Part shown: positions 27,768 through 42,538 of the stretch, one piece after another
Layout of the letters: every line of letters starts with the position of its first letter
Position numbering within the stretch: the stretch's first letter is position 1
Origin: Yoonia sp. SS1-5
GTDB taxonomy: Bacteria; Pseudomonadota; Alphaproteobacteria; Rhodobacterales; Rhodobacteraceae
Reading direction: 5' to 3'
Assembly: GCF_038443705.2 (NCBI RefSeq)
Contig: NZ_CP151767.2
Location: forward strand, 2,278,501 to 2,342,500
DNA: 64,000 nt
Notes under the pieces: model-generated
Seen by the model: the letters and a program-made list of their open reading frames with translations, nothing else
Told to the model about the DNA's origin: nothing
Databases searched by the model: none
Translations under genes and position numbers: made by a program

Positions 27768-30700
27768 ATGACATTTTATCGTCCGAATTTTCAGTTTGGT
27801 ACATTTGGGGATGACGTTCTGACAGGAACCGATGACCGAGATTTCATTTTCAGCTTCTTTGGTGATGACGATATTTCGACCGGGGCCGGCAATGACCGGA
27901 TCATCGCAGGATTTGGCGACGACCTTGTGACCGGCGGGGCCGGGGATGACTACATCAACGGTGGTTTCGGATTTGACATCGCCCGATACGCGGGCGGCAT
28001 CGCGGACTATGACATCCAGATGGGCTATGGCTGGTTTGGCCGGACGACGGTTACGTCCACCACGGCGGTTGATGATGCCGGGCGTGACAGGTTAGTCGGC
28101 GTCGAGGCGCTCTATTTCGCGGCGGATGATTATACGTTGTTCATTGACGGCACCAACAATGCTGTGCTGGCCGAGGATGATGACGGGTTCAGCCTGCCTG
28201 AAAACAATCTGCTGGCGATCAACACGTTTGGCCTGCTGCAGAATGACCGGGATTTTGACGGGGATACCCTGACCATCATCAGCGTGTCCGAGACAAGCGC
28301 ATCCGGCGTGCCCGTGGCTTTGAACGGCGAAACGATCAGCTACACCCCCGGGACGCAGTTTGACAGTCTTCAGGCTGGCGAGTTTGCGGTCGATACATTC
28401 ACCTATGTTGTTGATGACGGCAAAGGCGGGACAGACACCGCCGTGGTCAGCATCACCATCGAAGGGACAAATGATGCGCCTGTGCTCACAGTCGACAACG
28501 CGACCGTCGCCGAGAATCAGGCCGACGTCATCGCAAACATCAGCGCCACGGATGTTGACAGCGACTTTCTGATCTTTTCGCTTGGCGGCGTTGATGCCAG
28601 CCTGTTCGAATTTGACGCAACAGGCACCCTGCGCTTTATCCTGGCCCCCGATTTTGAAGCGCCCGCCGACGATGGCGCCGACAATATCTACAACCTGACA
28701 ATCACCGTCACGGACGAACAGGGTGCAAGCACCAGCGAAGATATCACCGTGACCGTCACAGATGTAGATGAAGTGCCGCCCGTAGTCGCCCGGATCAACG
28801 AATTCCATTACGACAATGTCGGCACAGATGTGGGTGAATTCGTCGAGATACGGACAAATACCGGGGATGATGTCAGCGCCCTGCTGTTGGAATTCTACAA
28901 TGGATCGAATGGTTCGGTCTATCGCACGGCGACGATTGACGCTGCGACCATGACCACTGACGGGACCTATGATTACTATCTGATCAACCTGCCCAGCAAC
29001 GGTATCCAGAATGGCGCCCCTGACGGCCTGGCCCTGTCGAATGGCGGAACCCTGATCGAATTCCTCAGCTATGAGGGTAGCCTGACCGCAGTTGGCGGCG
29101 CCGCAGATGGCGAAAGTTCGACCGATATTGGCGTGGCAGAGGCCGGCGATACGACAGTTGGCTTCTCGCTGCAGCGCGACGAGGATGGCAATTGGGCCGC
29201 GCCCGCGTTGAACACCGCCGGTGCGGCCAATGTCCCTGCCCCCATCGCCCTGGACGCCCGGATCAACGAGTTTCACTATGACAATGACGGGGGCGATGTC
29301 GGTGAGTTCATCGAAATCCGCACCAATGCAGGGGCAGATGCCAGCGGCGTCGGAATAACGCTTTATAACGGGGCCAATGGCGCGCCCTACGACACACTCG
29401 ATCTGTCCGACGCTGTACAGTCGAGCGATGGAACCTACGACTACTACGTCTGGAACCTGCCAGCCAATGGCTTGCAGAATGGCAGCCCGGACGGGATTGC
29501 CTTGTCTGATGGCGATGGGCTGGTCGAATTTCTCAGCTACGAGGGGACGCTGACCGCGATTGGGGGCGTGGCCGATGGTCAGACCTCGGTCGATATCGGC
29601 GTGGAAGAAAGCGGGGCAACGCCGATTGGCGACAGCCTGCAGCGCAACGATGCCGGTGCCTGGGCCGAGGCTGGGCCCAACACCGCGGGGGCCGCCAACG
29701 CATTTGTTGCAGGACCGACAAGCGCCCGGATCAACGAATTTCACTATGATGATGACGGGGCGGACGATAATGAATTTGTGGAAATCCGCGTCAATGCGGG
29801 CGAAGATGTCAGCCTGCTAAGCGTCGATCTGTACAACGGAAACGGCGGCGCGTCATATCAAAGCTTTGCGGTCAGCAGCCTGCCCCGGACAACGGATGGC
29901 ACCTATGACTATTACGTCTTTGAAGGCAGTGTTCAGAACGGCCCTGATGGGATCGCATTGTCCAATGATGGGGTCGTGGTTGAATTCCTCAGCTACGAGG
30001 GGGAAATCACCGCAACCGACGGGCCAGCCAATGGACAAACCTCGGTCGATATCGGCGTGGCAGAGGCCGGCGATCAGGCAGAGGGGCTTTCACTGCAACG
30101 CAATGATGACGGCAGTTGGGGGGCCGCCCGCGCGGCGACATCCGGCGCCGCCAATGATGAGGTTGTCGATCCACCCGCGACCGACGCCCTGATCAGCGCC
30201 ATTCAAGGCAGTGGTGCGGAATCCGCGCTGGTGGGCCAGTCGGTCAATGTTGAGGCGGTCGTCACGCATGTGGTGTCCAACGGCTACTACCTGCAAGAGG
30301 AAGACAGCGATGCAGACGCCGACGCCGCCACGTCAGAGGGCATTTTTGTCTTTACCGGGGCGGCAGCCATGGTTGCGGTCGGCAATCAGGTTCAGGTGAC
30401 GGGCGAGGTGCAGGAACGGTTTGGCCAGACGCAACTTACCAATGTGACCAGCCCGGTTATTGTCATGGACATGGTCGCGACACCCACGGCAGCAGAGGTG
30501 CTGTTATCCCCCGACGCAGCACCCGATTTTGAAGCGGTCGAAGGGATGCTGATCACTGTCTCCAGCGGTAAGCCTGATCCGTTGATCGTGATCGAGAACT
30601 TCAATTTTGACCGTTTCGGGCAGATTGTCATCAGCGCCGGCGCGCAGACGCAGGCAACACAGCTCTTTGATGCGCAGACCGAGGCCGATGAAATCGCAGC

Positions 30701-32147
30701 CCTGCAAGAGGCGAACCAGATCAACCGGTTGATCCTTGATGACGGCGATAGCAGCCAGAATCCGGACCAGTTTGAATTTGTACCCGGTGGACCCGGCGAC
30801 AACGGCAATGGGTTTCTTGACGCAGGCGATGATTTTGGCGATGCGGGATCGACGCTGCGTTTGGGCACCGAACTGACGGATGATGTCACCGGCGTTCTGT
30901 CCTTTGCGTTTGGCGATTACCAACTGATCGTGACCGAAACGCTGGATATTGATGAAAGCACCAATAGCGGGGCGCGTCAGGATACGCCGGATGATGTGGG
31001 CGGTGACCTGCAGGTCGCAAGCGTGAACGTCCTGAACTATTTTGCGACTATTGATGAAGCCGGTGCAGGATCAGGGCCGAACAACCTTGACCCGCGCGGG
31101 GCGGATACGCTGGACGAACTGGGGCGGCAGACCGAAAAACTGGTCGCGGCCATCACCGGAACCGGGGCCGAAGTGTTTGCCCTGCAAGAGATCGAGAATG
31201 GCGGCTTTGGCGCCACGTCTGCAATCGCAACCCTTGTCGGGGCTTTGAATATCGAGGCTGCGGCATCCGGATCCGGCGCATCCTACGCCTTTGCGGACCC
31301 GACGGCGGATGCAGGTTTCATTGGGACCGATGCGATCACGACCGGGGTCATCTACGATCAGAACGCTGTGCGGCTGATACATTCGGAAACACTGGTCTAC
31401 GTGGAACAATCCGCGCAAACGACGTTTGATCTGGCAAATGTGCTGGATACCGCGCTGGGCACTGACCGGGTTGGTGACTTCCAACGCAATAGACCCTCTG
31501 TCGCGGCAACGTTTGAAGATCTTGAAACAGGCGAGATCTTTACCGTGGTGTCATCACACTTCAAATCCAAAGGACCAAGCGGGCTTGATCGGTTGGCAGA
31601 AGCGGCGCAAGACGCGCTTGACGCAGGAACGGCAACCGGGTTCACGCAGGCCGACGTGGATGCGCTTGTCGCCGACCCGAACTTTGATCAGGGCGATGGG
31701 CAGGGTTTCTGGAACCAGGTCCGGCTGGATGCATCCATCGAACTGGGTGACTGGATCGCGAATGGCTACAATGGGGGCGGCACCACGAACTATGTGCTGC
31801 TTGGTGACCTGAATGCCTATGCCAAGGAAGATCCGGTCCAGCACCTTGCAGAGGATGCAGGTCTTGTCGATCTGATCGACCGCGAAATCGGGCAGGACGA
31901 GGCGTATAGCTTTGTCTTTGACGGGCAGCGCGGCACGTTGGATCAGGGGCTCGCCGATGCGGAATTGGCGGCCTTTGTCACCGGCGCGACCGAATGGCAT
32001 ATCAACGCAGACGAGCCTGATCTGCTGAACTATGATACCTCATTCAAGAACTCCGCCTTCTACAATGACGGGGTCTATGGCGCATCGGATCATGATCCAT
32101 TGATCATCGGCCTGGACTTTGACGGGCCAGATCCATTGCTAGGCTAG
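27768..32147 (+). CDS. Large extracellular nuclease of ExeM/NucH type with lamin-tail repeats
   Basis: 1459 residues, no Sec signal peptide. In order: RTX-type Ca-binding nonapeptides at residues 10-75 (FGDDVLTGTDDRDF, GAGNDRIIAGFGDDLVTGGAGDDYINGG); tandem cadherin/VCBS-like domains to about 335; three lamin-tail-like domains (each opening RINEFHYD); an OB-like module (LVGQSVNVEAVVTHVVSNGYYLQEE); and a C-terminal endonuclease/exonuclease/phosphatase domain with LQEIENGG, SSHFKSKG, GDLNAYAKEDP and SDHDPLIIGLDF. This is the layout of secreted DNases such as ExeM, used for DNA scavenging or biofilm turnover (family knowledge). RTX repeats suggest type I secretion although they are N-terminal here. 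The ATG follows GGGGAAG at good spacing. Confidence 0.88.
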   Translation: MTFYRPNFQFGTFGDDVLTGTDDRDFIFSFFGDDDISTGAGNDRIIAGFGDDLVTGGAGDDYINGGFGFDIARYAGGIADYDIQMGYGWFGRTTVTSTTAVDDAGRDRLVGVEALYFAADDYTLFIDGTNNAVLAEDDDGFSLPENNLLAINTFGLLQNDRDFDGDTLTIISVSETSASGVPVALNGETISYTPGTQFDSLQAGEFAVDTFTYVVDDGKGGTDTAVVSITIEGTNDAPVLTVDNATVAENQADVIANISATDVDSDFLIFSLGGVDASLFEFDATGTLRFILAPDFEAPADDGADNIYNLTITVTDEQGASTSEDITVTVTDVDEVPPVVARINEFHYDNVGTDVGEFVEIRTNTGDDVSALLLEFYNGSNGSVYRTATIDAATMTTDGTYDYYLINLPSNGIQNGAPDGLALSNGGTLIEFLSYEGSLTAVGGAADGESSTDIGVAEAGDTTVGFSLQRDEDGNWAAPALNTAGAANVPAPIALDARINEFHYDNDGGDVGEFIEIRTNAGADASGVGITLYNGANGAPYDTLDLSDAVQSSDGTYDYYVWNLPANGLQNGSPDGIALSDGDGLVEFLSYEGTLTAIGGVADGQTSVDIGVEESGATPIGDSLQRNDAGAWAEAGPNTAGAANAFVAGPTSARINEFHYDDDGADDNEFVEIRVNAGEDVSLLSVDLYNGNGGASYQSFAVSSLPRTTDGTYDYYVFEGSVQNGPDGIALSNDGVVVEFLSYEGEITATDGPANGQTSVDIGVAEAGDQAEGLSLQRNDDGSWGAARAATSGAANDEVVDPPATDALISAIQGSGAESALVGQSVNVEAVVTHVVSNGYYLQEEDSDADADAATSEGIFVFTGAAAMVAVGNQVQVTGEVQERFGQTQLTNVTSPVIVMDMVATPTAAEVLLSPDAAPDFEAVEGMLITVSSGKPDPLIVIENFNFDRFGQIVISAGAQTQATQLFDAQTEADEIAALQEANQINRLILDDGDSSQNPDQFEFVPGGPGDNGNGFLDAGDDFGDAGSTLRLGTELTDDVTGVLSFAFGDYQLIVTETLDIDESTNSGARQDTPDDVGGDLQVASVNVLNYFATIDEAGAGSGPNNLDPRGADTLDELGRQTEKLVAAITGTGAEVFALQEIENGGFGATSAIATLVGALNIEAAASGSGASYAFADPTADAGFIGTDAITTGVIYDQNAVRLIHSETLVYVEQSAQTTFDLANVLDTALGTDRVGDFQRNRPSVAATFEDLETGEIFTVVSSHFKSKGPSGLDRLAEAAQDALDAGTATGFTQADVDALVADPNFDQGDGQGFWNQVRLDASIELGDWIANGYNGGGTTNYVLLGDLNAYAKEDPVQHLAEDAGLVDLIDREIGQDEAYSFVFDGQRGTLDQGLADAELAAFVTGATEWHINADEPDLLNYDTSFKNSAFYNDGVYGASDHDPLIIGLDFDGPDPLLG
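28791..30160 (+). repeat. Three tandem coding repeats (lamin-tail domains) inside the nuclease gene
   Basis: The codons for RINEFHYD recur at 28791, 29259 and 29727, an exact 468-base (156-codon) period. Each unit also repeats YEG.(L/I)TA and SLQR.D..W. The third unit is a few codons shorter in the middle. Recent tandem duplication or homogenisation is likely. Confidence 0.85.
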
Positions 32148-32189: not shown

Positions 32190-32972
32190 CTATCCGGTGA
32201 TCGCGGCCCAAGAGGCCAACAGGGTGCCGATCGCAGCAGTATCATAGGAAAACAGGCCCGTTTCATTCTTGGCACTGACCAGTGCAACGGCACCCTCGCC
32301 CGCCAAGGCATTTTCCAGACAGATCAGAACGGGCCCGTCCTGATCAGGCCTGACTTTTGCATGAGCCGTGCGAAACGCGACAATCTGTTCGTCCCAAATC
32401 GCCTGCAGCACTTCGGAATCGCCTTCGGCCTCGACAAGCTTGTCATCCACCAGATAAAGCAGACCACCCATCACCCCGGCATTTGCAGCCAGAAAACGTT
32501 CCACCGGAGGCGGCGGCGCCGCATCCAGATCGACACCCCAGGTCACAGCCAGCGCAGTTGCCGGAACGCCGGTGTCAGCGCTTGGGCTGCTGGACTTCAC
32601 CGGGGCGGCAAGCACCGTAATCTTGGCGGCTGCGGTGGATATCGCCGTCAGGGCGGCACCAACGGTGTTGATCGTGTCGGGGTCTTCGGCCGACAGGAAC
32701 TGGCCCACAACGTCATCCTTGTCAGGAACGTCGCCGGTAATCGCCGTAATGCCACGGAACCTGCGGCCAGCCGCAACAAGGCTGACGGTGACATCACCCA
32801 TGGTGAATGTCAGGGTCCGTTCCAGAACGGTATTGTCGACCTCGCGCAGGATCGCGGACATCGGCAGCGGGGCCCCACCGGATGATATCACACGCGCCCC
32901 GCCGTCGACAAAAACCGCATCTGCCGCAACCAGAGCGGCCAGTTTCGTGGAAAGGGATGTATTATCAATCAC
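32190..32972 (-). CDS. Unrecognised 260-aa protein at the end of the GTPase/kinase locus
   Basis: I do not recognise a family. No signal peptide or membrane segment. The N-terminal half is Ala/Val/Thr-rich with alternating beta-like strands (ADAVFVDGGARVISSGGAP, RTLTFTMGDVTVSLVAAGRRF), then a low-complexity Pro/Ser piece, then a helical C-terminal part (DSEVLQAIWDEQIVAFRTAHAKV...). A KVRPDQDGPVLICLENALAGEG segment looks like an alpha/beta core. It starts 33 bases downstream of the LC7-like gene on the same strand, so it is probably the last gene of that operon. Codon use is like its neighbours. Confidence 0.75.
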   Translation of the reverse strand: MIDNTSLSTKLAALVAADAVFVDGGARVISSGGAPLPMSAILREVDNTVLERTLTFTMGDVTVSLVAAGRRFRGITAITGDVPDKDDVVGQFLSAEDPDTINTVGAALTAISTAAAKITVLAAPVKSSSPSADTGVPATALAVTWGVDLDAAPPPPVERFLAANAGVMGGLLYLVDDKLVEAEGDSEVLQAIWDEQIVAFRTAHAKVRPDQDGPVLICLENALAGEGAVALVSAKNETGLFSYDTAAIGTLLASWAAITG

Positions 32973-33005
32973 TTGTGTTGTCCTGCGATCACTATATTTC
33001 TTGGC

Positions 33006-33368
33006 CTAGGTGCCGCCGCTGATGCGGTCAAGACAGGGGCGCGCGTCCGACAGGAATGCAGCAACATCCACATCCGGCGCACAGACGCAGCACAACACAT
33101 CCGTCGGCTCGGCGGGCGCGCGCAGGAAGATACGCAGTTGATCCTTTGTGGCAACAAAGGCGGCATTGCTGGGGCTATCGCCAAAGGCGGGGTTCTTATC
33201 TGTGCCCAGCGCCATCGCGGCCTCTGCACAAAGCTTGTCCAGACTTTCGCGCCGATATGTCGTGTCCGAATTTGTCACCAGAATCATCTGTGTCGACAAA
33301 TCAGCAAATGCCAGCGTATCGCAGCCCGAAAAATTGCCTTTCAGCGCGTCCAAATCATCAACAACCAT
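33006..33368 (-). CDS. Small protein with possible Roadblock/LC7-like fold, 120 aa
   Basis: 120 residues. The order GCDTLAFADLSTQMILVTNS (two strands), RRESLDKLCAEAAMALG (helix), NAAFVATKDQLRIFLRA (two strands), TDVLCCVCAPDVDVAAFLSDARPCLDRI (strand and helix) fits the beta-beta-alpha-beta-beta-alpha pattern of Roadblock/LC7 proteins. In bacteria these often regulate small GTPases such as MglA (family knowledge). I cannot confirm the family from sequence alone. Its place next to dynamin-type GTPases makes a regulatory role plausible. It is about 96 bases downstream of the small GTPase gene. Confidence 0.65.
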   Translation of the reverse strand: MVVDDLDALKGNFSGCDTLAFADLSTQMILVTNSDTTYRRESLDKLCAEAAMALGTDKNPAFGDSPSNAAFVATKDQLRIFLRAPAEPTDVLCCVCAPDVDVAAFLSDARPCLDRISGGT

Positions 33369-33464
33369 GTTTCTCTACCCGTCTTCTCATAGCCCTTGTT
33401 CCTCACTAAGGGAAAATAAGAGATTGGGGAAGCCTGTGAAAGAGGCGCGCGCGATCAAACGCCG

Positions 33465-34298
33465 TCAGCTGTTGCCATTTGAAGAGGCAGCCGCCGGGCG
33501 CACCCGCTTGGGCTGCTCTGTGTCGCTGGACCGTTGCACACGACGCGGAACAACCGGGGCGGCCACATGTTCGGGGACAGCCTGACCGTCGGCAATGTTA
33601 TACAGCGGCTCTGGGCTGCGGGCCGCAAGATCGGACAGCTTTTGCAGCGTTTCGATCAAATGTTCGACAAACGGGCCAGCCCCGCTGCCATCCCACTTTT
33701 CGTAATCATCCCCCGCCTCCAGCGCCTGAAGCAGTGAAATCGGGAACGTGCCGCCGAACTGTCCTTCGGTCTCGCGGCGTACCCGCTTGAAGACACGGCG
33801 GCGGTCCTTGTCGGTCGTCAGCTTGTCGTAACGGGTGATCAGCAGGATGGAATTCTCGCGAACCGATTGCGGCATTGTTTCCCACACCGCAGCCTCGGAT
33901 TGGCGCCAGGCTTGGGTCGCATGGGTGCACCAGATCACGGCGTCAATCTCGGGCAGGACACGTTCCCAGACCTCTGATGACATGTTGGGATCAGAGATGC
34001 CCGGAAAGTCGATCAGGTCGCAAACATCCAGAACGTCGCATTCCATGAAAAGCCGGATAACCCGGGTTTCCTCGACCGGGATCCCTTCGAGGTGATCAAG
34101 CGAGATAGCCTCGGCATGACCGTCGACATCTTCGCGGTAGGGTTGGGCGTTGCCATAGGACATCCACACCGGCGAAAGGCGTGTGGCGGTCACCTTTTCG
34201 GGCAGCGGTCGGGCGCCAAGCAGCAGGTTTGACAAGGTGCTTTTGCCCGCGCTGAATTCGCCCATCAGGGCGATCCGGGGTTTGCGCCGTTCGCTCAT
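33465..34298 (-). CDS. Small dynamin-type P-loop GTPase, 277 aa
   Basis: Essentially a stand-alone G domain. Seen: G1 GEFSAGKST at about 13-21, conserved Thr in ATRLSPVW (G2 region), G3 DFPGI in CDLIDFPGISDPN, and the G4-like TRYDKL. The GEFSAGKST form is typical of bacterial dynamin-like proteins. After the G domain only a short helical region and a basic tail (VPRRVQRSSDTEQPKRVRP) follow, too short for a full dynamin stalk. Its ATG overlaps the stop of the larger GTPase gene by 4 bases, so the two are translated together and may form hetero-oligomers, as paired bacterial dynamins do. Confidence 0.85.
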   Translation of the reverse strand: MSERRKPRIALMGEFSAGKSTLSNLLLGARPLPEKVTATRLSPVWMSYGNAQPYREDVDGHAEAISLDHLEGIPVEETRVIRLFMECDVLDVCDLIDFPGISDPNMSSEVWERVLPEIDAVIWCTHATQAWRQSEAAVWETMPQSVRENSILLITRYDKLTTDKDRRRVFKRVRRETEGQFGGTFPISLLQALEAGDDYEKWDGSGAGPFVEHLIETLQKLSDLAARSPEPLYNIADGQAVPEHVAAPVVPRRVQRSSDTEQPKRVRPAAASSNGNS

Positions 34299-36370
34299 GC
34301 GGCTGATCCGTCGATGGCGGCGCCATGGCTCAGCTCTTCGAAGATGTAGTCAAACAGCTCTTCGCGTTCTTGCTGGGCCTTGATGCCAAAGATATTCTCG
34401 AGGTCATCAACACCAATATTCGATTTCTCGCTGATATCGGTCAGCAAGGCGCGCTGTTCGGCCATGAAATCTGTCAACTCGCGCTCGGCCATTTGCCGAA
34501 TACCGTTGGCTTGCCTGACTTTCAGTTCATCCACGATAGGGGCGGTTTCAGCCTCGATCAGGTCATAAAAGCCACTTGCAAAGGCGCGGTAGCCCTTGCG
34601 GCGTTTCCACCAGCCCTTCCACCAGGATGTCTGCAGATCAAGCGCGATGGTCTGCCCAAGCGATACAGGCGCAGGAATTTCCGGCGCCGCAGGCGGTGTG
34701 ATCGTGAAGTTCTCAACATCGACACCAAACGCTGTCCGGTAGGTTTCCGCCAGTTCGGTGGATGCGACCTGAAACACCTGATCACAGGTCGACGATACAT
34801 TGCGGCGCATGACCTGATAGCTGGTCCGCAGCAACATCCGCAGCCCGTCAGGGCTATATTGCCAGACCTGATCTTCACCATTGGTTTCCAGATGCTGCAG
34901 CAGGGATTCCAGTGCACGATCCAGGAAACGTTTGTGCGATTGGTCAACCCGCGACCCGAACTGCTGGAAAACGATGTCCAGCCGTTCGTTCAGCAGCGCC
35001 AGATTGTCGGCCTCAAGCTTATCGAGATGTGTCACCAGTTCGCCATGCGGCATCACATCGACATTGTCGCCGTCCAGACGCATGGACACGACAGAGTTCG
35101 ACGCGCGCACACCGCTGACAAGGTTCAAGGCACGCTTGCGCGAGGATGTCAGAATTTCCGCACCCGGCCCTTCGGCAATCCGGTCGGCCAACGCCTTGTA
35201 GAGTGCGGGAACCCCTGACAGATGCCAGACAAGCTCGTTCGTTTCCATGCCGGCAGTCTTGGAATCCAGCGCCACTTCAGCCCAGTTATACAAGGCCTCG
35301 GCACTGTCGGACACGATTTCGTTGAGATCTTCAGACAAAGCGATATTCGCCCAATACGCACTGCCAAAGATAACTTCGGGGTTTTCGGGGCCGTTATTGT
35401 CCGCAAGGGTCTGCAAAATGCTGTCGCGAATTTCGGGCACCTGATCAGCGGGGTTCGACAATTCGTCGATCCGGTTCACGAAAATCACAACCTCGCGGGC
35501 CTTTACGTTCGATATCAACCGGATCAGGCCCATATCCATAGAGCTCAACGCCTGATGCGCTGACAGCACAACCACACAGATGCGGCTTTCGCGCAATGCG
35601 TTGATGGTGATCTGCTCGCGCATCATGAAGGTATCGTTCACGCCGGGGGTGTCACGCAGGCAGAACGGCATCGGGATGGCCGGGGCGGACAGATACAGAT
35701 CGGCCGATTTGGTGATATCGGCGAACTGACCCTGCTGATCCTCTTCGTCGAGGTCCTCAAAATCATCGCCCATGCAGACGTAGCGTTCCACCAGCTCGTC
35801 AGTGAGTTCGGCGTAATTGTGTTTCTGACCCAGCAGCAGTTCAAACTTGCGCCCCAGTCGGGCCTTTGTCTTTTCACGCATCTCTGCGATCTGCTCGCGG
35901 ACTTTCTCAAGCTCCTCATCAGCGCCGGCGCGCGACGACAGTTCACCGATTCGGCCGCCATTCTCGACAAGGTGGTCCCATTCGCCCTGGCTAAAGAACT
36001 GGAACGTGGCCGTCGGCGCATCCAGCGGCAAGGGCGCATTCAGATGCAGCGAGGTCACAACCGATGTCCACGGGTTCACATCCGCAGGCAGCAAATCAGG
36101 CCGACCGATCATTGCGTTGACCAGTGACGTCTTGCCAGACTTGATCTGGCCAATCATCGTGATGCTTGGCTCAAAAGCCCTTAAGGATTTGATTAATTTG
36201 GCAGATTTCTTCTCGGTGTCGTTGCTGCCCAGCTTGACGACATCCCCGAGAGTGGCCTCGAGGTCCTTGATCTCGTCATGAAACTCTTCCAGCTTTTCGA
36301 GGCCGAGTCGCATGAATGGGTGGTGCGCTGCCGGGACTTTGTAGCCGTCCCCTTTTGTCAGCTCTTCCAT
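34295..36370 (-). CDS. Large dynamin-type GTPase with Trp/Lys membrane-binding patch, 691 aa
   Basis: G1 GQIKSGKTS (about 74-82), G2 region NPWTSVVTSLHL, G3 DTPGV within PFCLRDTPGVND, G4 NRID within VIFVNRIDELSNP: a complete GTPase. A long helical stalk-like region follows (LDKLEADNLALLNERLDIVFQQFGSRV...). Near residue 590 the segment WWKGWWKRRKGYR is a striking aromatic and basic patch, a good candidate for membrane insertion. A final helical region (VRQANGIRQMAERELTDFMAEQRALL) could complete the stalk. The second of two ATGs was chosen because AGGA lies 6 bases before it; the first gives two extra residues. It likely binds and remodels the inner membrane. Confidence 0.87.
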   Translation of the reverse strand: MEELTKGDGYKVPAAHHPFMRLGLEKLEEFHDEIKDLEATLGDVVKLGSNDTEKKSAKLIKSLRAFEPSITMIGQIKSGKTSLVNAMIGRPDLLPADVNPWTSVVTSLHLNAPLPLDAPTATFQFFSQGEWDHLVENGGRIGELSSRAGADEELEKVREQIAEMREKTKARLGRKFELLLGQKHNYAELTDELVERYVCMGDDFEDLDEEDQQGQFADITKSADLYLSAPAIPMPFCLRDTPGVNDTFMMREQITINALRESRICVVVLSAHQALSSMDMGLIRLISNVKAREVVIFVNRIDELSNPADQVPEIRDSILQTLADNNGPENPEVIFGSAYWANIALSEDLNEIVSDSAEALYNWAEVALDSKTAGMETNELVWHLSGVPALYKALADRIAEGPGAEILTSSRKRALNLVSGVRASNSVVSMRLDGDNVDVMPHGELVTHLDKLEADNLALLNERLDIVFQQFGSRVDQSHKRFLDRALESLLQHLETNGEDQVWQYSPDGLRMLLRTSYQVMRRNVSSTCDQVFQVASTELAETYRTAFGVDVENFTITPPAAPEIPAPVSLGQTIALDLQTSWWKGWWKRRKGYRAFASGFYDLIEAETAPIVDELKVRQANGIRQMAERELTDFMAEQRALLTDISEKSNIGVDDLENIFGIKAQQEREELFDYIFEELSHGAAIDGSAA

Positions 36371-36455
36371 TTTCATTCCTGTCCGTCCTCAATCACAAAA
36401 CTTCTTAACAGTTGTTCAATGCGCCGCCAAATCACGACTCTACGCCAGCTTTATT

Positions 36456-36484
36456 GCTATAATGGAAACAGGTTAGCAGGGCAA
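36456..36484 (-). promoter_or_regulatory. Probable promoter upstream of the large dynamin gene
   Basis: Minus strand -35 TTGCCC, 17 bases, -10 TATAGC, in the 158-base gap between the third and second GTPase genes. The predicted start near 36449 leaves an 80-base leader. It would let the two-GTPase/LC7 part be expressed separately from the kinase part. Confidence 0.5.
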
Positions 36485-36528
36485 AACTATGGCGATTGTT
36501 TCTCATTTCTTTCAAGTGTTGTCGCAGG

Positions 36529-37821
36529 TTACGCAGCCAGGTCGGCCTGCAACTCGTGCTTGATCTGCAAAAGCAGGCTTAACGCCTCAATCGCGGCGCT
36601 GTCGCTCTTTTCCATCTGCATCAACTGCACCAGATCAGCGGCATCCATGGCGGCGTTGCGCGCGATCTGAAGGCGTTCATCGGCAGCATCACCGTTGTCA
36701 TTCAGATGCTCGCTTAACCATTGCATATTTTCGACCGTCTTGGCGATGATCTTTGCAGGTGCCCCATCCTGAGACCCTTCGGCAAGTTTCAGCATCGCCT
36801 GACTTTCAGCCACGATATAGGACACAGCACTTTCATAGGCATCGCGCGTGCTTGGCTGCAAAGTCACGATATCGGCCGGGGTATCGGCTTTCTTGGCGGC
36901 GGCTTTGGGCTTGGCTTTTGATTTCGCTTTCGGCTTTGCCTTGGCGGTGGTTTTTGGTGCGTCGGCAGGCACATCTTCGGCGGTCATGATGTCGGCCAAA
37001 ACATCCATGTTCTGGTGCATCAGCATATCGGCCATATCAATGGCCGTCTGACGCCCTTGATCCACCTGTTTCAGAACAGCCGAGATCAACGCCGTCCCGC
37101 CCGACGCCTTCAGCGCGGCCTTGTCCACATTGCCGTCATCGTCACGTGCGCCAATGGCGTCCAGCGTGGCAATCGGCATGATTTTGTTGAACTCATGCTG
37201 GGCTGTGTTGCGAATTGTGCCTTCGCTCGCTTCCAGCATCCCGTTTGCCTTCAGGAAATCGGCCTTCGTGATCATCAGGAACGCATGGTCCTTGATCAGA
37301 TCAGGCATCACAGACCACAGGGCCTGTTCAAGCGCGTTAAATCCTTGGGTACACCACAGCGCGACATCCGCACGTTTGGCCGCCCACTGGCTGGCCCGAT
37401 GCATGGATGCCTTGTCCTCGGGGGCGACGACCTCCAGCACGGAAATCTTGCGCAAGGCTGGCAGCGGGAGCTGCAGGTCCACAAACACCGGGGATTGTTC
37501 GGCGATCGAGGATGGATCCACACTGATCAGGGTCTGCTGACTGCCATCCGCAAGGGTGCAGGTCGCCTTTGCCTCGTCACCATAGGTCAATTGCAGGCTT
37601 GGCAGGCGGACGCCTTCGGGAACAACCTCGGATCCGACAAGCAGATTCAACAAGGATGACTTTCCAGAAGAAGGCAGGCCCATCAACGCCAGCCGGACCG
37701 GTTGCTCGATCCGTGACAACAGATGTTCGGCCCGTTCCTGAGCGGGTTCAGGCAGCCGCTTTGACGCGACTGCCTGTTTGAGTTGTTCGTGGACGCGTGC
37801 GCCCAGAGATTGGTTCGACAT
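36529..37821 (-). CDS. Dynamin-type GTPase-like protein with degenerate G3, 430 aa
   Basis: G1 GLPSSGKSS at about 46-54 and a G4-like TKAD in FLMITKADFL are clear. Where a DxxG (G3) motif is expected the sequence reads KISVLEVVAPEDKAS, so Mg-coordinating DxxG is absent and GTP hydrolysis is doubtful. From about residue 288 a Lys/Ala/Pro-rich linker (KPKAKSKAKPK) separates a C-terminal helical domain (YESAVSYIVAESQAMLKLAE..., MQMEKSDSAAIEALSLLLQIKHEL). The start overlaps the phosphatase stop by one base. It may be a regulatory partner of the two other GTPases. Confidence 0.8.
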   Translation of the reverse strand: MSNQSLGARVHEQLKQAVASKRLPEPAQERAEHLLSRIEQPVRLALMGLPSSGKSSLLNLLVGSEVVPEGVRLPSLQLTYGDEAKATCTLADGSQQTLISVDPSSIAEQSPVFVDLQLPLPALRKISVLEVVAPEDKASMHRASQWAAKRADVALWCTQGFNALEQALWSVMPDLIKDHAFLMITKADFLKANGMLEASEGTIRNTAQHEFNKIMPIATLDAIGARDDDGNVDKAALKASGGTALISAVLKQVDQGRQTAIDMADMLMHQNMDVLADIMTAEDVPADAPKTTAKAKPKAKSKAKPKAAAKKADTPADIVTLQPSTRDAYESAVSYIVAESQAMLKLAEGSQDGAPAKIIAKTVENMQWLSEHLNDNGDAADERLQIARNAAMDAADLVQLMQMEKSDSAAIEALSLLLQIKHELQADLAA

Positions 37822-38918
37822 TACTTACCTCCGGCGGCTAACTTAGCCGGCGGCGTTGCCTCTTCAACCTCCTTTTTCTTGCCAGCGCCTTTTGGCGACT
37901 GCGATTTCGCGTCAGTCTTGCCATCTACGGACTTCAACGGCGCGACCTCTTTGACGGTCGGCGGCAGTTGCAAATCCTTGACGCGGGCCGCTTCGGGGTT
38001 GCGCGGCTTCATACCGTCGGGAGTCACAATCGCGTCTTTCTTGTCCATATCGACAACACGCGTGATGTTCGACCCGTGCGTATCAATCTGACCTGCAGGC
38101 TTGGCGCGGATCGCGCGGATCACCGGCTTGTTGTGGTTCAGCTTGATCACAGAGAACGTGCAGTTGTCCTGATCAGGATCACCCAGCGCCTCGATTGCCT
38201 CGAGAAGGTGACCGCAGATTTCGGCGCTCTTGCGACGGCGATACCGGTGCAGGATCTTCTGGATATGCGGCTCTTCGAGATATTGCAGGCCGTCAGACGA
38301 AACGACAACGATATCACCAACCTGCAGCTCAAACGGTGTCCGGGGACAATCCGATTTCGCCACGCGATCGCCAAGGATGACCGAGGTCAGGCAGTTGCGA
38401 TCCGGATGGTTTTTGCCGGCAGCCGGGTCCAGCAAACCTTGCTTGACCATAAAGTCGATCTGCGGCGCCATCGAATGGTCTTCGTTCAGCTGCTGCATCT
38501 TTCCGGCACGGAAATGATAAAGCGGGCTGTCACCAATCGACATCCAGAACATCCGGTTTTCGATCAGGACCAGGGACACCAGAGTAGCCCCCATTCCGCG
38601 TGTATCCGGGTTCTCTTTGACGTGTTCGCGCACAACATTGTTGGCGTTCACAGCCGCAGAGGTCAGATATTGCGGGATCTCATTTTCGAAATCCGTGAAA
38701 TTCGCACTTTGGAATTTCAGCTCACTATACACTTCGGTCACGACGATCTTGCTGGCGACATCACCAGCGGCGTGACCGCCCATGCCGTCTGCAAGAACCA
38801 CAACACCACTGTCCGCCCCAAACGGGAAGTCGGTGACAATTGCGTCCTCTTGATAGTCTCTACCGCCCTGACAAATCGCTGACGCGACGTCAAAACGTGG
38901 TTCAGGCGATCGCCACAT
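37821..38918 (-). CDS. PP2C-type Ser/Thr protein phosphatase
   Basis: 365 residues. PP2C motifs in order: GGRDYQEDAIV (metal Asp), VVVLADGMGGHAAGDVAS (DGMGG), GMGATLVSLVL, SIGDSPLYHFR, VVVSSDGLQYL, and the last metal Asp in GDPDQDNCTFSVIKL. About 100 further residues are Pro/Lys/Ala-rich and probably disordered. The frame opens further upstream, but ATG-TGG lies 9 bases after GGGGAGG; two ATGs just before it are alternatives. It overlaps the FHA gene by 17 bases. Expected to reverse phosphorylation by the neighbouring kinase. Confidence 0.9.
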   Translation of the reverse strand: MWRSPEPRFDVASAICQGGRDYQEDAIVTDFPFGADSGVVVLADGMGGHAAGDVASKIVVTEVYSELKFQSANFTDFENEIPQYLTSAAVNANNVVREHVKENPDTRGMGATLVSLVLIENRMFWMSIGDSPLYHFRAGKMQQLNEDHSMAPQIDFMVKQGLLDPAAGKNHPDRNCLTSVILGDRVAKSDCPRTPFELQVGDIVVVSSDGLQYLEEPHIQKILHRYRRRKSAEICGHLLEAIEALGDPDQDNCTFSVIKLNHNKPVIRAIRAKPAGQIDTHGSNITRVVDMDKKDAIVTPDGMKPRNPEAARVKDLQLPPTVKEVAPLKSVDGKTDAKSQSPKGAGKKKEVEEATPPAKLAAGGK

Positions 38919-39696
38919 CTTCATCATCCTCCCCGTCTGCACTGTCTTCTGTCCAGCTGAAATTTTCATCACAGAGGGCTACGAAGCGCAGAACCGTCTC
39001 ACCAATACGCATGACGTCACCCGTTTTCAGCGTCTCGTTGCTGATCAAAGGCTTGTCGTTCAGGCGCACAATATTCGACTTGCCGCCATGGCCCAGCGTG
39101 AATTCCTTTGCTTCTGGGTCATAGACGATCGCCGCATGGTTTGTGCGCGAAATAGAGTTGTCGCCAAAATCAAGCTGCACAGCCTGATCTTCGCCACGGC
39201 CAATCTGGGACATTCCAGCAAACAGCGAAAAGCTTTCGCCGCGGCCCGGACCTTCGGAAACCACGATCCAGCCCACTGGGAACTTGGACCGTTGTGCCGG
39301 GGCGGATTTGGGCGCATCGTTGAAGATGTCCACAACATCGCCGTCGGACTTGTCAAAGCCGATCAACCGGGTCTTGGTCCGGCGGGCACGTGCTGGCGAC
39401 CGCATTGCGGCGCTGGCAGCGTCAGCTGCACCTGCGGAAGGCAGATCCGGCACTTCGGTTGGCAGCTCGGTCGAGCCGTCTTCCATGTCCCAGATGTTCA
39501 CACCACCGGCCGCGCCGCCATCACCAGCATTTACCTTGCTATTGATGTTGGTGAGCATATCGCTGACCCCGGCATCGCCATTCTCATCCTCGACGATCGA
39601 ACCGATTGTGTCCCGATAGGACTGTTCGAGCGTTTCCGCATCAGATCGGCCAGCGTTTCTGTCTTTTCTACCGAATAGAGCAAGAAGAAATTTCAT
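38902..39696 (-). CDS. FHA-domain protein, 264 aa
   Basis: Phosphothreonine-reading adaptor. The C-terminal FHA domain (about 150-250) shows FAGMSQIGRGEDQAVQL, then NSISRTNHAAIVYDPEAKEFTLGHGGKSNIVRLND and LKTGDVMRIGETVLRFV; the core Gly-Arg, Ser-Arg-x-(N)H and Asn are present. The N-terminal 140 residues are low-complexity, with Thr-rich parts (ETLEQSYRDTIGSI) and KTRLIGFDKSDGDVVDIF, possible phosphorylation sites. It lies between the kinase and phosphatase genes, the usual signalling triad arrangement (as in type VI secretion control by PpkA/PppA/Fha), but no type VI genes are in the window. Confidence 0.9.
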   Translation of the reverse strand: MKFLLALFGRKDRNAGRSDAETLEQSYRDTIGSIVEDENGDAGVSDMLTNINSKVNAGDGGAAGGVNIWDMEDGSTELPTEVPDLPSAGAADAASAAMRSPARARRTKTRLIGFDKSDGDVVDIFNDAPKSAPAQRSKFPVGWIVVSEGPGRGESFSLFAGMSQIGRGEDQAVQLDFGDNSISRTNHAAIVYDPEAKEFTLGHGGKSNIVRLNDKPLISNETLKTGDVMRIGETVLRFVALCDENFSWTEDSADGEDDEDVAIA

Positions 39697-39754
39697 TTTA
39701 CCTACCTTCCATCTAAATCACAGGGCGTGGCCGCAAGGCCTGCCGTCCCGTAAA

Positions 39755-42079
39755 TTATTCCTCATCACCAGTGTAATTCATTGGCGCCACCCACGTACTT
39801 TCGCCCCGCCGAACCGAGAAAATGAACTGTTTCGTTCCTTTTTCGAGTTCGCTTTCGACGATCGTCGCGATCGCGTCACGGCTTACAAAATCCTGACCAG
39901 TCGGGATGTAGCTGACAAGCACATCGCCCACCTTCAACTCACCCGCACCGCTTTCCGGTGCGTCGGTCACAACTGTCCGCCATTCTGTTCCGGTATAGCT
40001 TGTCTGGAATTTCACGCCGTTGCGCAGTTCAGTCTGCTGAACCACTGGCAGGATCCAGGGCTGATCGACGCTTTCGCTTGTCGCGGGGTCCAAGGTGCCG
40101 AATGCGACTTCGATCTGATCGGCCTCACCGATATCAGTGGCGTTGCGCAATACGCTTGGGATCTGGCTGATCGCATCAACGGGTGTACCGTTTACGGATG
40201 TGACCACCAGGCCGGGCTTGACCCAAACCGGTGAGATCGCACCGACCTGACCAATCACGTTGGATCCGGCTGCATCTGCTTCGAACGGCAATTGAACCGT
40301 CCATTGTGTTTCCACGGATGCTGGCGGCAGTTCATTACCAGGCTTTACAGCAACAATCTCTTGCGCTTCAGGACCGGGGCCAACCGCACTGACCGTTGAC
40401 GGCGTGCTGGGCAGCGCAACCGCTGGGGTCGCACCATCGGCAACCGGACGGTTTGCTGTCTGGCTTGGCAGATCGCGGGTGCCTTCCAGCGCGTCGGTCT
40501 CAGGCCGCGGCGTCGCAACAGGCTCTGGCAGTGGCGCGGGCGCTTCGATGACCGGCGCGGCTGCAATCTCTACACTTTCGGGACGCACGGCAGGGCGAAC
40601 TGCCGGAACGGGCAGGGTCGCGGCTTCGGTGCCGGATACGATCACGGGACCATTTGGCGCTTCTTCTGCCGCATCGGTGCCGGTGTCGGTTGTGATGACA
40701 ACAGGACCCACAGGTTCCGGTGTTTCGGCAGCCGGTGCTTCCTCGGCCGGGGCTTCAACCACAGGCTCGGTGACGGGGGCGGCGGCCTCTTCAACAGGGG
40801 CCACGGCGGCGTCGTCCGTCGTTACGGTCGGCGCTTCGGGCGCAGTTGTAACAGGCGTGGTCACTTCGGGGGTGGTCACTGTCTCGACCGGTGCGACCGC
40901 AGCGGTTTCAACTTCGACGTTTGCGGGCGCCTCGGGCACTGCAGTGGACACCTCGGGTGCCGCAGCCACCGGGGTCGCTTCGGGCGTATCATTGCCGGTT
41001 GCCACAAACGCACCAACGCCGATCAGCAACGCAACAGCGGCGGCCGATCCAAGGAGCATTGGCATTTTTGATCGGGTCTGTGTCCCTTCATCCGCAGCCA
41101 CGGCGGCAACAGGTGCAGCACCGGCAACGTTCAACGCCGTGACGTTGTCGGTATTGCCGTCCATCATGTCGATCCAGGCCTTGGCGGACTGCAAACGATC
41201 TTTCGGCAGGACGGCGAGCGCCTTGTCGATGGATGCCAGGAAATCATCGTCGTAATCGGGGAAGCGGCCGATCAGCGGCACATATGGGTCAGCTTCGCCG
41301 GATGCGATAGCGGCAAGACGAGCCTGCGAGTTGGGCGGCACGTCCTTTGCAATCAGGTGGTGGAAGGACGCAGCCAGCGCGTACAGGTCACTGCTTGGGC
41401 TTTGCTCGGACCCTGCAATGTAGAATTCCTGCGGGGAATAGCCGTCCTTGACCACGCGCAGCGCAGACAGAACCCGGCTTTGCTTGGTTGCTTCTTCACG
41501 CGCAGCACCAAAGTCGATCAGGACCGGGTGAAAGTCGCTGTTGATCAGAATGTTGTCCGGCGAAATGTCACGGTGCAGGATGCCCTGATCGTGGATAAAG
41601 CCCACAGCGCCCAGAATTTCCTTGAGGATCGACTTGATCTGCGCAGGCGTCAGCCCGTGATTAGGATCCTCAATCGTGTCCAGAAGGTCGCGACCTTCCA
41701 CGAAATCCAGCGCCATATAGGCGGTTTCGTTATCCTCGAAAACCTGGTGCACGCCAACGATGTTGGGGTGATCAAGCTTGGCGAGACTGCGCGCCTCTTG
41801 CACAAACAGGCGAACAATGGACTTCAGCTCGTTCTGGTGCGCACGGGAACGGGCCTGCACGATATAGCGGCTCCGACGGCAGAAGGCACCGGGGAAACAC
41901 TCTTTAATAACGATCTTGCGGTCGAGGCTGTCTTTGGCAAGATACGTGATACCAAACCCACCCGCGTTCAAGAAATTCTCGATCGTGTACTGACCGTGCA
42001 TCAACTTGGTGCCCGGCTTCAGTTCATCGACGAAACTGTCCTTGTCGTCCGCGTTATCTTTTACTTGCGCCTTACCCAT
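39755..42079 (-). CDS. Membrane Ser/Thr protein kinase with extracytoplasmic PDZ-like region, 774 aa
   Basis: Cytoplasmic kinase domain (about 31-310): glycine loop NAGGFGITY, Lys59 in IVIKE, HRDISPDN (169-176) and DFG (189-191). Ser replaces the usual Lys two residues after the catalytic Asp, as in some bacterial kinases. One membrane segment (340-361) follows, then about 200 residues of Pro/Glu/Ala/Thr-rich linker, then two PDZ-like pieces in the periplasm (ISPVWVKPGLVVTSVNGTPVDAI; GELKVGDVLVSYIPTGQDF). This suggests sensing of an envelope signal. The ATG of MGKAQVKDNADD was chosen; the frame extends 23 codons further. First gene of the locus; the FHA gene follows 58 bases downstream. Confidence 0.9.
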   Translation of the reverse strand: MGKAQVKDNADDKDSFVDELKPGTKLMHGQYTIENFLNAGGFGITYLAKDSLDRKIVIKECFPGAFCRRSRYIVQARSRAHQNELKSIVRLFVQEARSLAKLDHPNIVGVHQVFEDNETAYMALDFVEGRDLLDTIEDPNHGLTPAQIKSILKEILGAVGFIHDQGILHRDISPDNILINSDFHPVLIDFGAAREEATKQSRVLSALRVVKDGYSPQEFYIAGSEQSPSSDLYALAASFHHLIAKDVPPNSQARLAAIASGEADPYVPLIGRFPDYDDDFLASIDKALAVLPKDRLQSAKAWIDMMDGNTDNVTALNVAGAAPVAAVAADEGTQTRSKMPMLLGSAAAVALLIGVGAFVATGNDTPEATPVAAAPEVSTAVPEAPANVEVETAAVAPVETVTTPEVTTPVTTAPEAPTVTTDDAAVAPVEEAAAPVTEPVVEAPAEEAPAAETPEPVGPVVITTDTGTDAAEEAPNGPVIVSGTEAATLPVPAVRPAVRPESVEIAAAPVIEAPAPLPEPVATPRPETDALEGTRDLPSQTANRPVADGATPAVALPSTPSTVSAVGPGPEAQEIVAVKPGNELPPASVETQWTVQLPFEADAAGSNVIGQVGAISPVWVKPGLVVTSVNGTPVDAISQIPSVLRNATDIGEADQIEVAFGTLDPATSESVDQPWILPVVQQTELRNGVKFQTSYTGTEWRTVVTDAPESGAGELKVGDVLVSYIPTGQDFVSRDAIATIVESELEKGTKQFIFSVRRGESTWVAPMNYTGDEE

Positions 42080-42538
42080 CTCACATCCAGCTTTCAAACT
42101 TCGGTTGCACACGGAGAAAGCCCGTTTGCACTCAGTGTCTAGTCTCATTCAAATTGGGCTAAAAAGTGACGCCAACTTGTTGTTTCGAGGCCCGTAATCC
42201 GGACCATTCTGTGCCATTGTTCTCTAATCGTAAACGGAATAGCGGCAAAAAACCGCCGATACCCGTTATTTATATTCATTTTTGGCGGTCAAGCGCCGTT
42301 CGGACACATTTCCGCACCTTCGTTTACCTTAAATTCGAAAAAACAGGCATTTTGCACAGTTTCCCCGGTTCGCCTGCGCCGCTCTGCGGGGATTTACAAG
42401 TGATTCCCCGGCGCTGATTGAAGGTCGTCTTAACGATTCCTTTACCGAAAACGTATAGCGGCCTCGTCCGCAGACTTGAAACCCTCCTTGTTGTCGCGCT
42501 TGCTACGGTGCAGCATTGCCGCAACGGGGGATGTGTGA
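42080..42538. other. 459-base divergent intergenic region, no gene seen
   Basis: Lies between the kinase gene (minus) and the gap-like gene (plus), so it should hold both promoters. AT-richer than its surroundings. It contains an inverted repeat ACCGCC ... GGCGGT (42259-42292) around the AT-rich core TTATTTATATTC. No convincing -35/-10 pair for either gene was found. Confidence 0.5.

Follow-up and report, generated by a model that had tools for sequence, protein, structure and literature searches.

The eight genes

The window analysed here is a 64,000 nucleotide stretch of the genome of Yoonia sp. SS1-5 (contig NZ_CP151767.2, positions 2,278,501 to 2,342,500), of the order Rhodobacterales. 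Between window positions 32190 and 42148 it carries a cassette of eight open reading frames (ORFs), tightly packed and all on the minus strand, which are designated K, F, P, A, B, C, R and H. The original prediction, made from the sequence of the window, had described eight packed minus-strand genes here, encoding a membrane Ser/Thr kinase, an FHA adaptor, a PP2C phosphatase, three dynamin-type GTPases, a small LC7-like protein and a protein of no assigned kind, and all eight ORFs are present. The genes, with three shorter features that lie inside them, are as follows.

39755..42148, minus strand: K, Ser/Thr kinase, 797 aa in the longest frame (Pkinase, 107 bits)
38902..39696, minus strand: F, FHA-domain protein (FHA PF00498, 29 bits, above cut-off)
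37821..38972, minus strand: P, PP2C phosphatase (PP2C_2, 43 bits)
36529..37821, minus strand: A, likely a degenerate GTPase and paralogue of C (profile match to C)
34295..36376, minus strand: B, large dynamin-like GTPase, 693 aa (Dynamin_N, 46 bits)
33465..34298, minus strand: C, short dynamin-type GTPase, 277 aa (Dynamin_N, 43 bits)
33006..33368, minus strand: R, Roadblock/LC7-fold protein, 120 aa (predicted fold)
32190..32972, minus strand: H, 260 aa, C-terminal half (about 152-260) probably Roadblock-like (predicted fold)
39355..39375, minus strand: motif KTRLIGF in F, residues 108-114, with Thr109 as candidate phospho-threonine and Ile112 at +3
38043..38063, minus strand: motif TRVVDMD in the tail of P, with Thr304 as second candidate phospho-threonine site
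34577..34654, minus strand: conserved stretch QTIALDLQTSWWKGWWKRRKGYRAFA in B, a possible membrane-contact element (from the B alignment)

Pfam matches above cut-off were obtained for K (Pkinase), F (FHA), P (PP2C_2), and B and C (Dynamin_N), and for A below cut-off only. K probably starts at 42079, where the original prediction had placed the end of the locus. This internal ATG, the 24th codon of the longest K frame, is the better supported start because methionine is retained there in most aligned kinases. The start of P probably lies 45-54 bases inside its longest frame, at 38918-38927. A promoter and terminator scan gave no signal beyond shuffle level.

Conservation of gene order

Profiles of the eight families were run against 120 neighbourhoods of B, 40 from genomes of the order and 80 from mostly named ones, and the gene order was then read. 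The exact order K-F-P-A-B-C-R-H on one strand is found in 76 of the 120 loci, a count that describes the company kept by B, through which every locus was chosen, and not how often K-F-P occurs without B. When near-copies are merged the same order is present in 70 of 113 clusters at 99% B identity and 56 of 84 at 90%. The idea that K-F-P and the GTPase genes are chance neighbours is therefore rejected. The conserved cassette foreseen in the original prediction is borne out in these B-selected loci: the kinase triad and the GTPase genes are not rare neighbours, and their homologues did not turn out to be part of a known pathway. The gene set is also seen, independently, in plasmids of Leisingera and Ruegeria as annotated in public records.

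Among the remaining 44 loci, about 21 end at a contig boundary on the side of the missing genes. Three loci have a complete cassette with a small deviation: C is split into two ORFs (L098), R and H overlap (L115), or additional K and P genes follow downstream (L156). F-P-A-B-C-R-H without an adjacent K is seen in six uncut loci (L112, L124, L129, L130, L132 and L138) and in four more that are cut by contig ends. For five of the six uncut loci the genome has a good K homologue elsewhere (E < 1e-120), and for the sixth the match is only 3e-12. Two of the K-less genomes were inspected and have further K-F-P triads, and K with LysM-type proteins, at other sites.

Other layouts are B-C-R-H with A-P-F-K on the opposite strand (L117 and L118, the latter from Leisingera), B-C-R-H-B-(A or C)-K-F-P (L048, a layout also annotated in Ruegeria), K-F-P-B-C (L044), and an additional B-C pair ahead of K (L122). 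A locus from a metagenome-assembled genome has A-B-C-R-H without K-F-P (L099). Eight loci (L049-L056, of which L050 is a 3.4 kb contig) have one or two B-C pairs alone, and K-F-P triads without GTPase genes also exist. The units are thus separable, K being absent from six uncut loci, K-F-P from one metagenomic locus, and B-C pairs standing alone.

The GTPases

B and C are two adjacent dynamin-type genes with intact motifs. The key G1, G3 and G4 residues of B are present in all 120 aligned rows, and the G1-G4 columns of C are conserved in 111-120 of 117-120 rows. B matches solved bacterial dynamins by profile (Cj-DLP 5owv, 5e-17; BDLP 2j68, 1e-13). C, at 277 aa against the 693 aa of B, has the appearance of a G domain without a long stalk. 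A Trp-rich stretch, TIALDLxxxWWxxWW, is conserved in the B alignment and could contact the membrane.

The third of the dynamin-type GTPases claimed in the original prediction stands differently. A matches the C profile at E 4e-61 across 224 columns and also has an Ala/Lys-rich linker and a C-terminal extension. In 111 rows from A-bearing loci the P-loop GK is retained in 104, yet the G3 DxPG is missing in 99, present in nine and gapped in three. This retention of the P-loop with loss of DxPG makes A likely to be a pseudo-GTPase, a degenerate paralogue of C. Some of the nine DxPG-bearing rows resemble C sequences; the general column counts use one row per locus, so that a few of their A rows are really C, and the counts for A given here separate them. 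The prediction holds for B and C and is corrected for A.

The kinase, FHA protein and phosphatase

The Lys, HRD and DFG columns of K are conserved. Its nearest solved structure is the PpkA kinase domain (5hnv, E 4e-43), with StkP at 1e-20. Behind the kinase domain the protein has a transmembrane helix, a linker rich in Ala, Pro and Val, and a region on the far side of the membrane; the transmembrane-like stretch is present in close orthologues. When the tails of 85 K proteins are taken from 120 residues behind HRD to the end, 51 have such a stretch (median 453 residues) and the 34 without it are shorter (median 157 residues). A periplasmic PDZ-like part had been proposed for K; with 34 of 85 tails lacking such a stretch, it is not a general feature. 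By eye the part of K beyond the membrane is PDZ-like; Pfam gave no PDZ match in the K of the window, and in the orthologues one below cut-off, in a single protein. A second kinase of the same genome (L170, 8838-10313) is 56% identical to K over the kinase domain, and the 20 kb inspected there contain no partner gene of the cassette.

All eight catalytic and metal-site columns inspected in P are invariant. In F, the FHA residues that mark phospho-threonine binding are largely kept: Arg167 in 76 of 97 aligned rows, Ser183 in 74 of 87, Asn208 in 74 of 80 and Asn213 in 73 of 79.

The region of F ahead of the FHA domain is mostly variable, except for a KTR[LI][LI]GF-type motif, most often located 43 residues ahead of the FHA GR. 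Of 98 F proteins, 90 have the form [KR]TR[LIVM][LIVM]G[FHY] (after clustering, 85 of 92 at 99% and 64 of 71 at 90%) and 94 have the looser TR[LIV][LIVM], which shuffled sequences contain in 3.6 cases on average and in 9 at most. In the F of the window, Thr109 of this motif is a candidate phospho-threonine site on the basis of its conservation. There is a precedent in DgcB of Bdellovibrio, for which the FHA domain is reported to bind the phospho-threonine of its own N-terminus, with Val at +3 (PMC6733907), and FHA selectivity is reported to be set by residues at +3 (PMC5549992). Of 104 P proteins, 28 have the tail motif in the form TR[VLI][VIL]x[MIVLF][DN], as do 24 of 96 clusters at 99%. A corresponding threonine motif was not established for the GTPases: the looser form is slightly above the shuffle maxima, occurring in 30 of 126 B proteins (shuffle mean 16.7, maximum 27) and 24 of 124 C proteins (shuffle mean 9.8, maximum 17), but has no dominant position.

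The Roadblock-like proteins

The predicted fold of R is Roadblock/LC7, which confirms the LC7-like protein of the original prediction, and the predicted fold of H makes its C-terminal half (about 152-260) probably Roadblock-like. H, previously without any assignment, has thus gained one for this half; the N-terminal half still has none. R has no Pfam match and H one below cut-off, nothing usable for either came from Pfam, NCBIfam or PADLOC, and the R profile matched no Roadblock chain when compared with PDB sequences.

A second arrangement was also observed, in which a small protein named as Roadblock lies beside one or two B-C pairs. It is present in six of the eight loci that have B-C pairs alone (L049, L051-L054 and L056) and beside the extra pair of L122; the exceptions are L050, which is cut, and L055. 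In L049 and L051-L056 no kinase genes lie beside the B-C pairs. This second family likewise has no Pfam match, and its profile found no Roadblock chain among PDB sequences. Behind B-C-B-C in L051, L052 and L054 is another small conserved family, f11. Its L052 member has no Pfam domain, and the idea that f11 is another Roadblock protein was rejected, as profile comparison gave nothing.

Distribution and genomic site

Of 149 genomes sampled from the order, 60 have a relative of B at E 1e-5, in 26 of 72 genera; this count pools all arrangements and includes B-C pairs without K-F-P. In the window's own genus B is found in 47 of 56 genomes, including all 41 that are at least 96% complete, although one of these copies (G462) is partial. 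The nine genomes without it are small and 83-95% complete, and a true loss in some of them is possible. At E 1e-20 B is confined to the family of the window in samples of the class (2 of 289 genomes, at most four candidates scored in each) and of the phylum (4 of 299, at most three), and several genomes of the same family are listed in the phylum sample without a B match. The 80 contigs kept from 485 confirmed to carry B have titles of Rhodobacteraceae, Alphaproteobacteria or Pseudomonadota. In the B tree a weakly supported branch (69/98) has all 14 cassette-type rows to one side of it, and branches elsewhere are long. In Leisingera, Ruegeria and one Rhodobacter, 18 records place B relatives on plasmids or chromids whose assigned type is non-mobilizable.

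The cassette is flanked by a divergent glyceraldehyde-3-phosphate dehydrogenase (GAPDH) gene and a convergent ExeM-type nuclease gene. The GAPDH neighbour is retained in 21 of the 23 closest loci (L077-L099). The original prediction had asked for conserved co-occurrence of the families and for their neighbours, whether defence islands or core sites; the first is seen in the retained gene order, and the stable GAPDH site disfavours defence. On the other side, an ExeM/NucH-family nuclease domain lies in a long protein at window positions 27768-32147 on the plus strand, and a protein of this family is downstream of the cassette in six fetched loci (L057, L077, L078, L079, L082 and L092, of which L057 and L078 are near-copies).

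The patchy occurrence of B in the order would suit a phage-defence system, as had been suggested, in which B and C act like DynA or LeoBC-type dynamins in kinase-triggered membrane protection or abortive infection. DynA of Bacillus is reported to delay phage lysis (PMC8844932). B and C give partial PADLOC matches to LeoA/LeoBC (B 2.9e-9, the best; C 1.9e-5 and 2.1e-4), and the best NCBIfam and PADLOC models for K are of the defence kinase MAD6, with an NCBIfam score of 121 bits against a cut-off of 460, among many kinase models that match K. However, A, F, P, R and H have no PADLOC match, no relative was confirmed among viral contigs, and B is present in all nearly complete genomes of the genus, with a stable site in close loci. 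On these grounds phage defence is disfavoured, and we consider it unlikely.

The distribution also bears on a photosynthetic-membrane, light-related or vesicle-forming role, in which the dynamin module would shape intracytoplasmic membranes or release vesicles under kinase control. Reaction-centre genes are present in 34 of the 60 genomes with B relatives and 30 of the 89 without (p 0.007; p 0.027 without the window's genus), where, as in the other co-occurrence counts given here for LysM-type proteins and VipB, no account is taken of ancestry. In Leisingera caerulea, heme oxygenase and HWE histidine kinase genes, a possible light-sensor pair, adjoin K on a plasmid (L187, 2444-5579). Yet 26 of the 60 B-positive genomes have no reaction centre, including 5 of 14 of the genus, and the three annotated neighbourhoods that were read contain no reaction-centre or pigment genes. 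This explanation has a small chance of being correct.

Secreted proteins beside the kinase

Secreted LysM/substrate-binding-type proteins are encoded beside or between K, F and P in five loci (L048, L063, L109, L117 and L118), and beside other K copies in L156 and in two Rhodobacter/Tabrizicola-type genomes. One to three copies of LysM and/or substrate-binding type lie by kinase genes in L048, L063, L109, L117, L118, L156, L175, L178 and L183, and some of these secreted proteins have no LysM match. Homologues are encoded by 26 of the 60 genomes that have B relatives and by 9 of the 89 that do not, or 14 of 46 and 9 of 89 when the window's genus is left out. The genome of the window itself has none at E 1e-20, and these proteins can therefore be at most an optional part of the system.

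Proposed mechanism

From the computed gene set and order, predicted folds, catalytic motifs and threonine motif, we infer phosphorylation, binding, assembly, a membrane role and a signal as follows. The substrates of K would be Thr109, within the KTRLIGF motif of F, and in this lineage also the TRVV motif of the P tail. The FHA domain of F would then bind the phosphorylated motif, in the same F or in another, and this binding would alter the docking of F on the GTPase module; P would reset the phosphorylation state. B and C, together with the pseudo-GTPase A, may form a mixed membrane-bound assembly, for which R and H would be a platform or GTPase regulators. The likely job of such a system would be the maintenance or remodelling of the cell-envelope membrane in answer to an envelope signal. 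In several relatives this signal may enter through the LysM/substrate-binding-type proteins encoded beside K.

That the cassette is a single unit, in which a phospho-threonine switch controls a dynamin-type assembly with Roadblock-fold regulators for the envelope membrane, has in our judgement about an even chance of being right. The fuller version, in which a Hanks-kinase/FHA/PP2C switch gates a mixed dynamin assembly of active B and C with pseudo-GTPase A, held and regulated by Roadblock-fold proteins and with optional peptidoglycan-associated ligand sensors upstream, would make it a signalling-to-membrane machine of a new bacterial kind; it is more tentative and falls somewhat short of even. 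The exact gene order in 76 of 120 loci favours the single-unit interpretation, as do the K homologues elsewhere in five of the six genomes where an uncut locus lacks K, the threonine motif in 90 of 98 F proteins with the reported precedent of DgcB (PMC6733907), and the intact catalytic columns of K, P, B and C. It is also consistent with the Roadblock fold of R and probably of part of H, with the Roadblock-named protein that accompanies B-C pairs in the second arrangement too, and with the LysM/substrate-binding-type proteins in or beside K-F-P in five loci.

Comparison with known systems

Among known systems the GTPase module is closest to Cj-DLP1/2 and BDLP, which it resembles in the profile similarity of B and in its adjacent dynamin-type genes; the Campylobacter pair is reported to form a mixed tetramer (PMC6104087). 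It differs from them in the short G domain that its partner C has, in a degenerate third member, A, and in the kinase, FHA, PP2C and Roadblock genes that join the GTPases. The words kinase and Roadblock are absent from the main text of the Campylobacter pair paper (PMC6104087).

Roadblock regulators are known mainly with Ras-like GTPases. A Roadblock protein with a GTPase is common to the cassette, in which R has the Roadblock/LC7 fold, to MglA/MglB, and to the actinobacterial conservons, which are reported to have a kinase as well (PMC4316618). In contrast to both, the GTPases of the cassette are dynamin-type or degenerate and none is Ras-like, and its kinase is of the Hanks type where that of the conservons is a histidine kinase. 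The word dynamin is absent from the main text of the conservon survey (PMC4316618). This likeness raises the alternative of a cell-polarity or localisation system, in which R and H with the GTPases would work like MglB/MglA and K-F-P would serve as the input. It is improbable, as there is no Ras-like small GTPase among the eight genes and the PDB relatives of B are dynamin-like rather than MglA.

The LysM/substrate-binding-type proteins beside K in some relatives have a parallel in the GlnH-GlnX-PknG-OdhI cascade of Corynebacterium, where a Ser/Thr kinase, with an FHA protein as its substrate, is reported to be controlled by a periplasmic binding protein (PMC9769921). The output there is a metabolic enzyme, and the cascade as its abstract sets it out has no GTPases.

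The likening of K-F-P to the sets that control type VI secretion is upheld by PpkA as the nearest solved structure to K. In type VI secretion phospho-threonine binding by Fha is reported to gate activity (PMC3953482). As in the PpkA-Fha-PppA pathway, the cassette encodes together a PpkA-type kinase (by nearest solved structure only), an FHA reader and a PP2C eraser. It has no Tss genes, however, its partners are GTPases and Roadblock proteins, and it is neither encoded with type VI genes nor limited to genomes that have them. The absence of secretion genes from the locus, stated in the original prediction, stands, but a type VI locus is present about half a megabase away in the same genome. 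This locus (L184 and L185) includes a PP2C and a kinase of its own, with genes for a caspase-domain protein and an M23 peptidase nearby. Of the 60 genomes with B relatives 21 have VipB, as do 20 of the 89 others (p 0.13); when the window's genus is left out the counts are 14 of 46 and 20 of 89 (p 0.40). VipB is lacking from 39 of the 60 and from 7 of 14 sampled genomes of the genus. Despite PpkA and the type VI system of the genome, it is therefore very improbable that K-F-P is a detached type VI regulator acting in trans with the GTPases as accessories, VipB being absent from 39 of the 60 genomes with B relatives and the type VI locus having a PP2C and kinase of its own.

Significance

As far as the searches go, the parts of the cassette are of known kinds and their combination is undescribed: no description of the eight-gene set was found in the open-access literature among the matches listed, in keeping with the original prediction, which knew of no named system with this set. 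The analysis provides likely identities for A, R and H, which are annotated as hypothetical on two Leisingera plasmids; R and H are hypothetical proteins in the Ruegeria annotation as well. To our knowledge, little is established about the activation of bacterial dynamins. If the phospho-threonine switch acts on the dynamin-type assembly as proposed, the cassette would carry the logic of Ragulator/Rag or MglB/MglA over to dynamins, as a bacterial counterpart. It would allow a direct genetic test of whether phosphorylation controls a dynamin machine and whether Roadblock proteins regulate dynamins.

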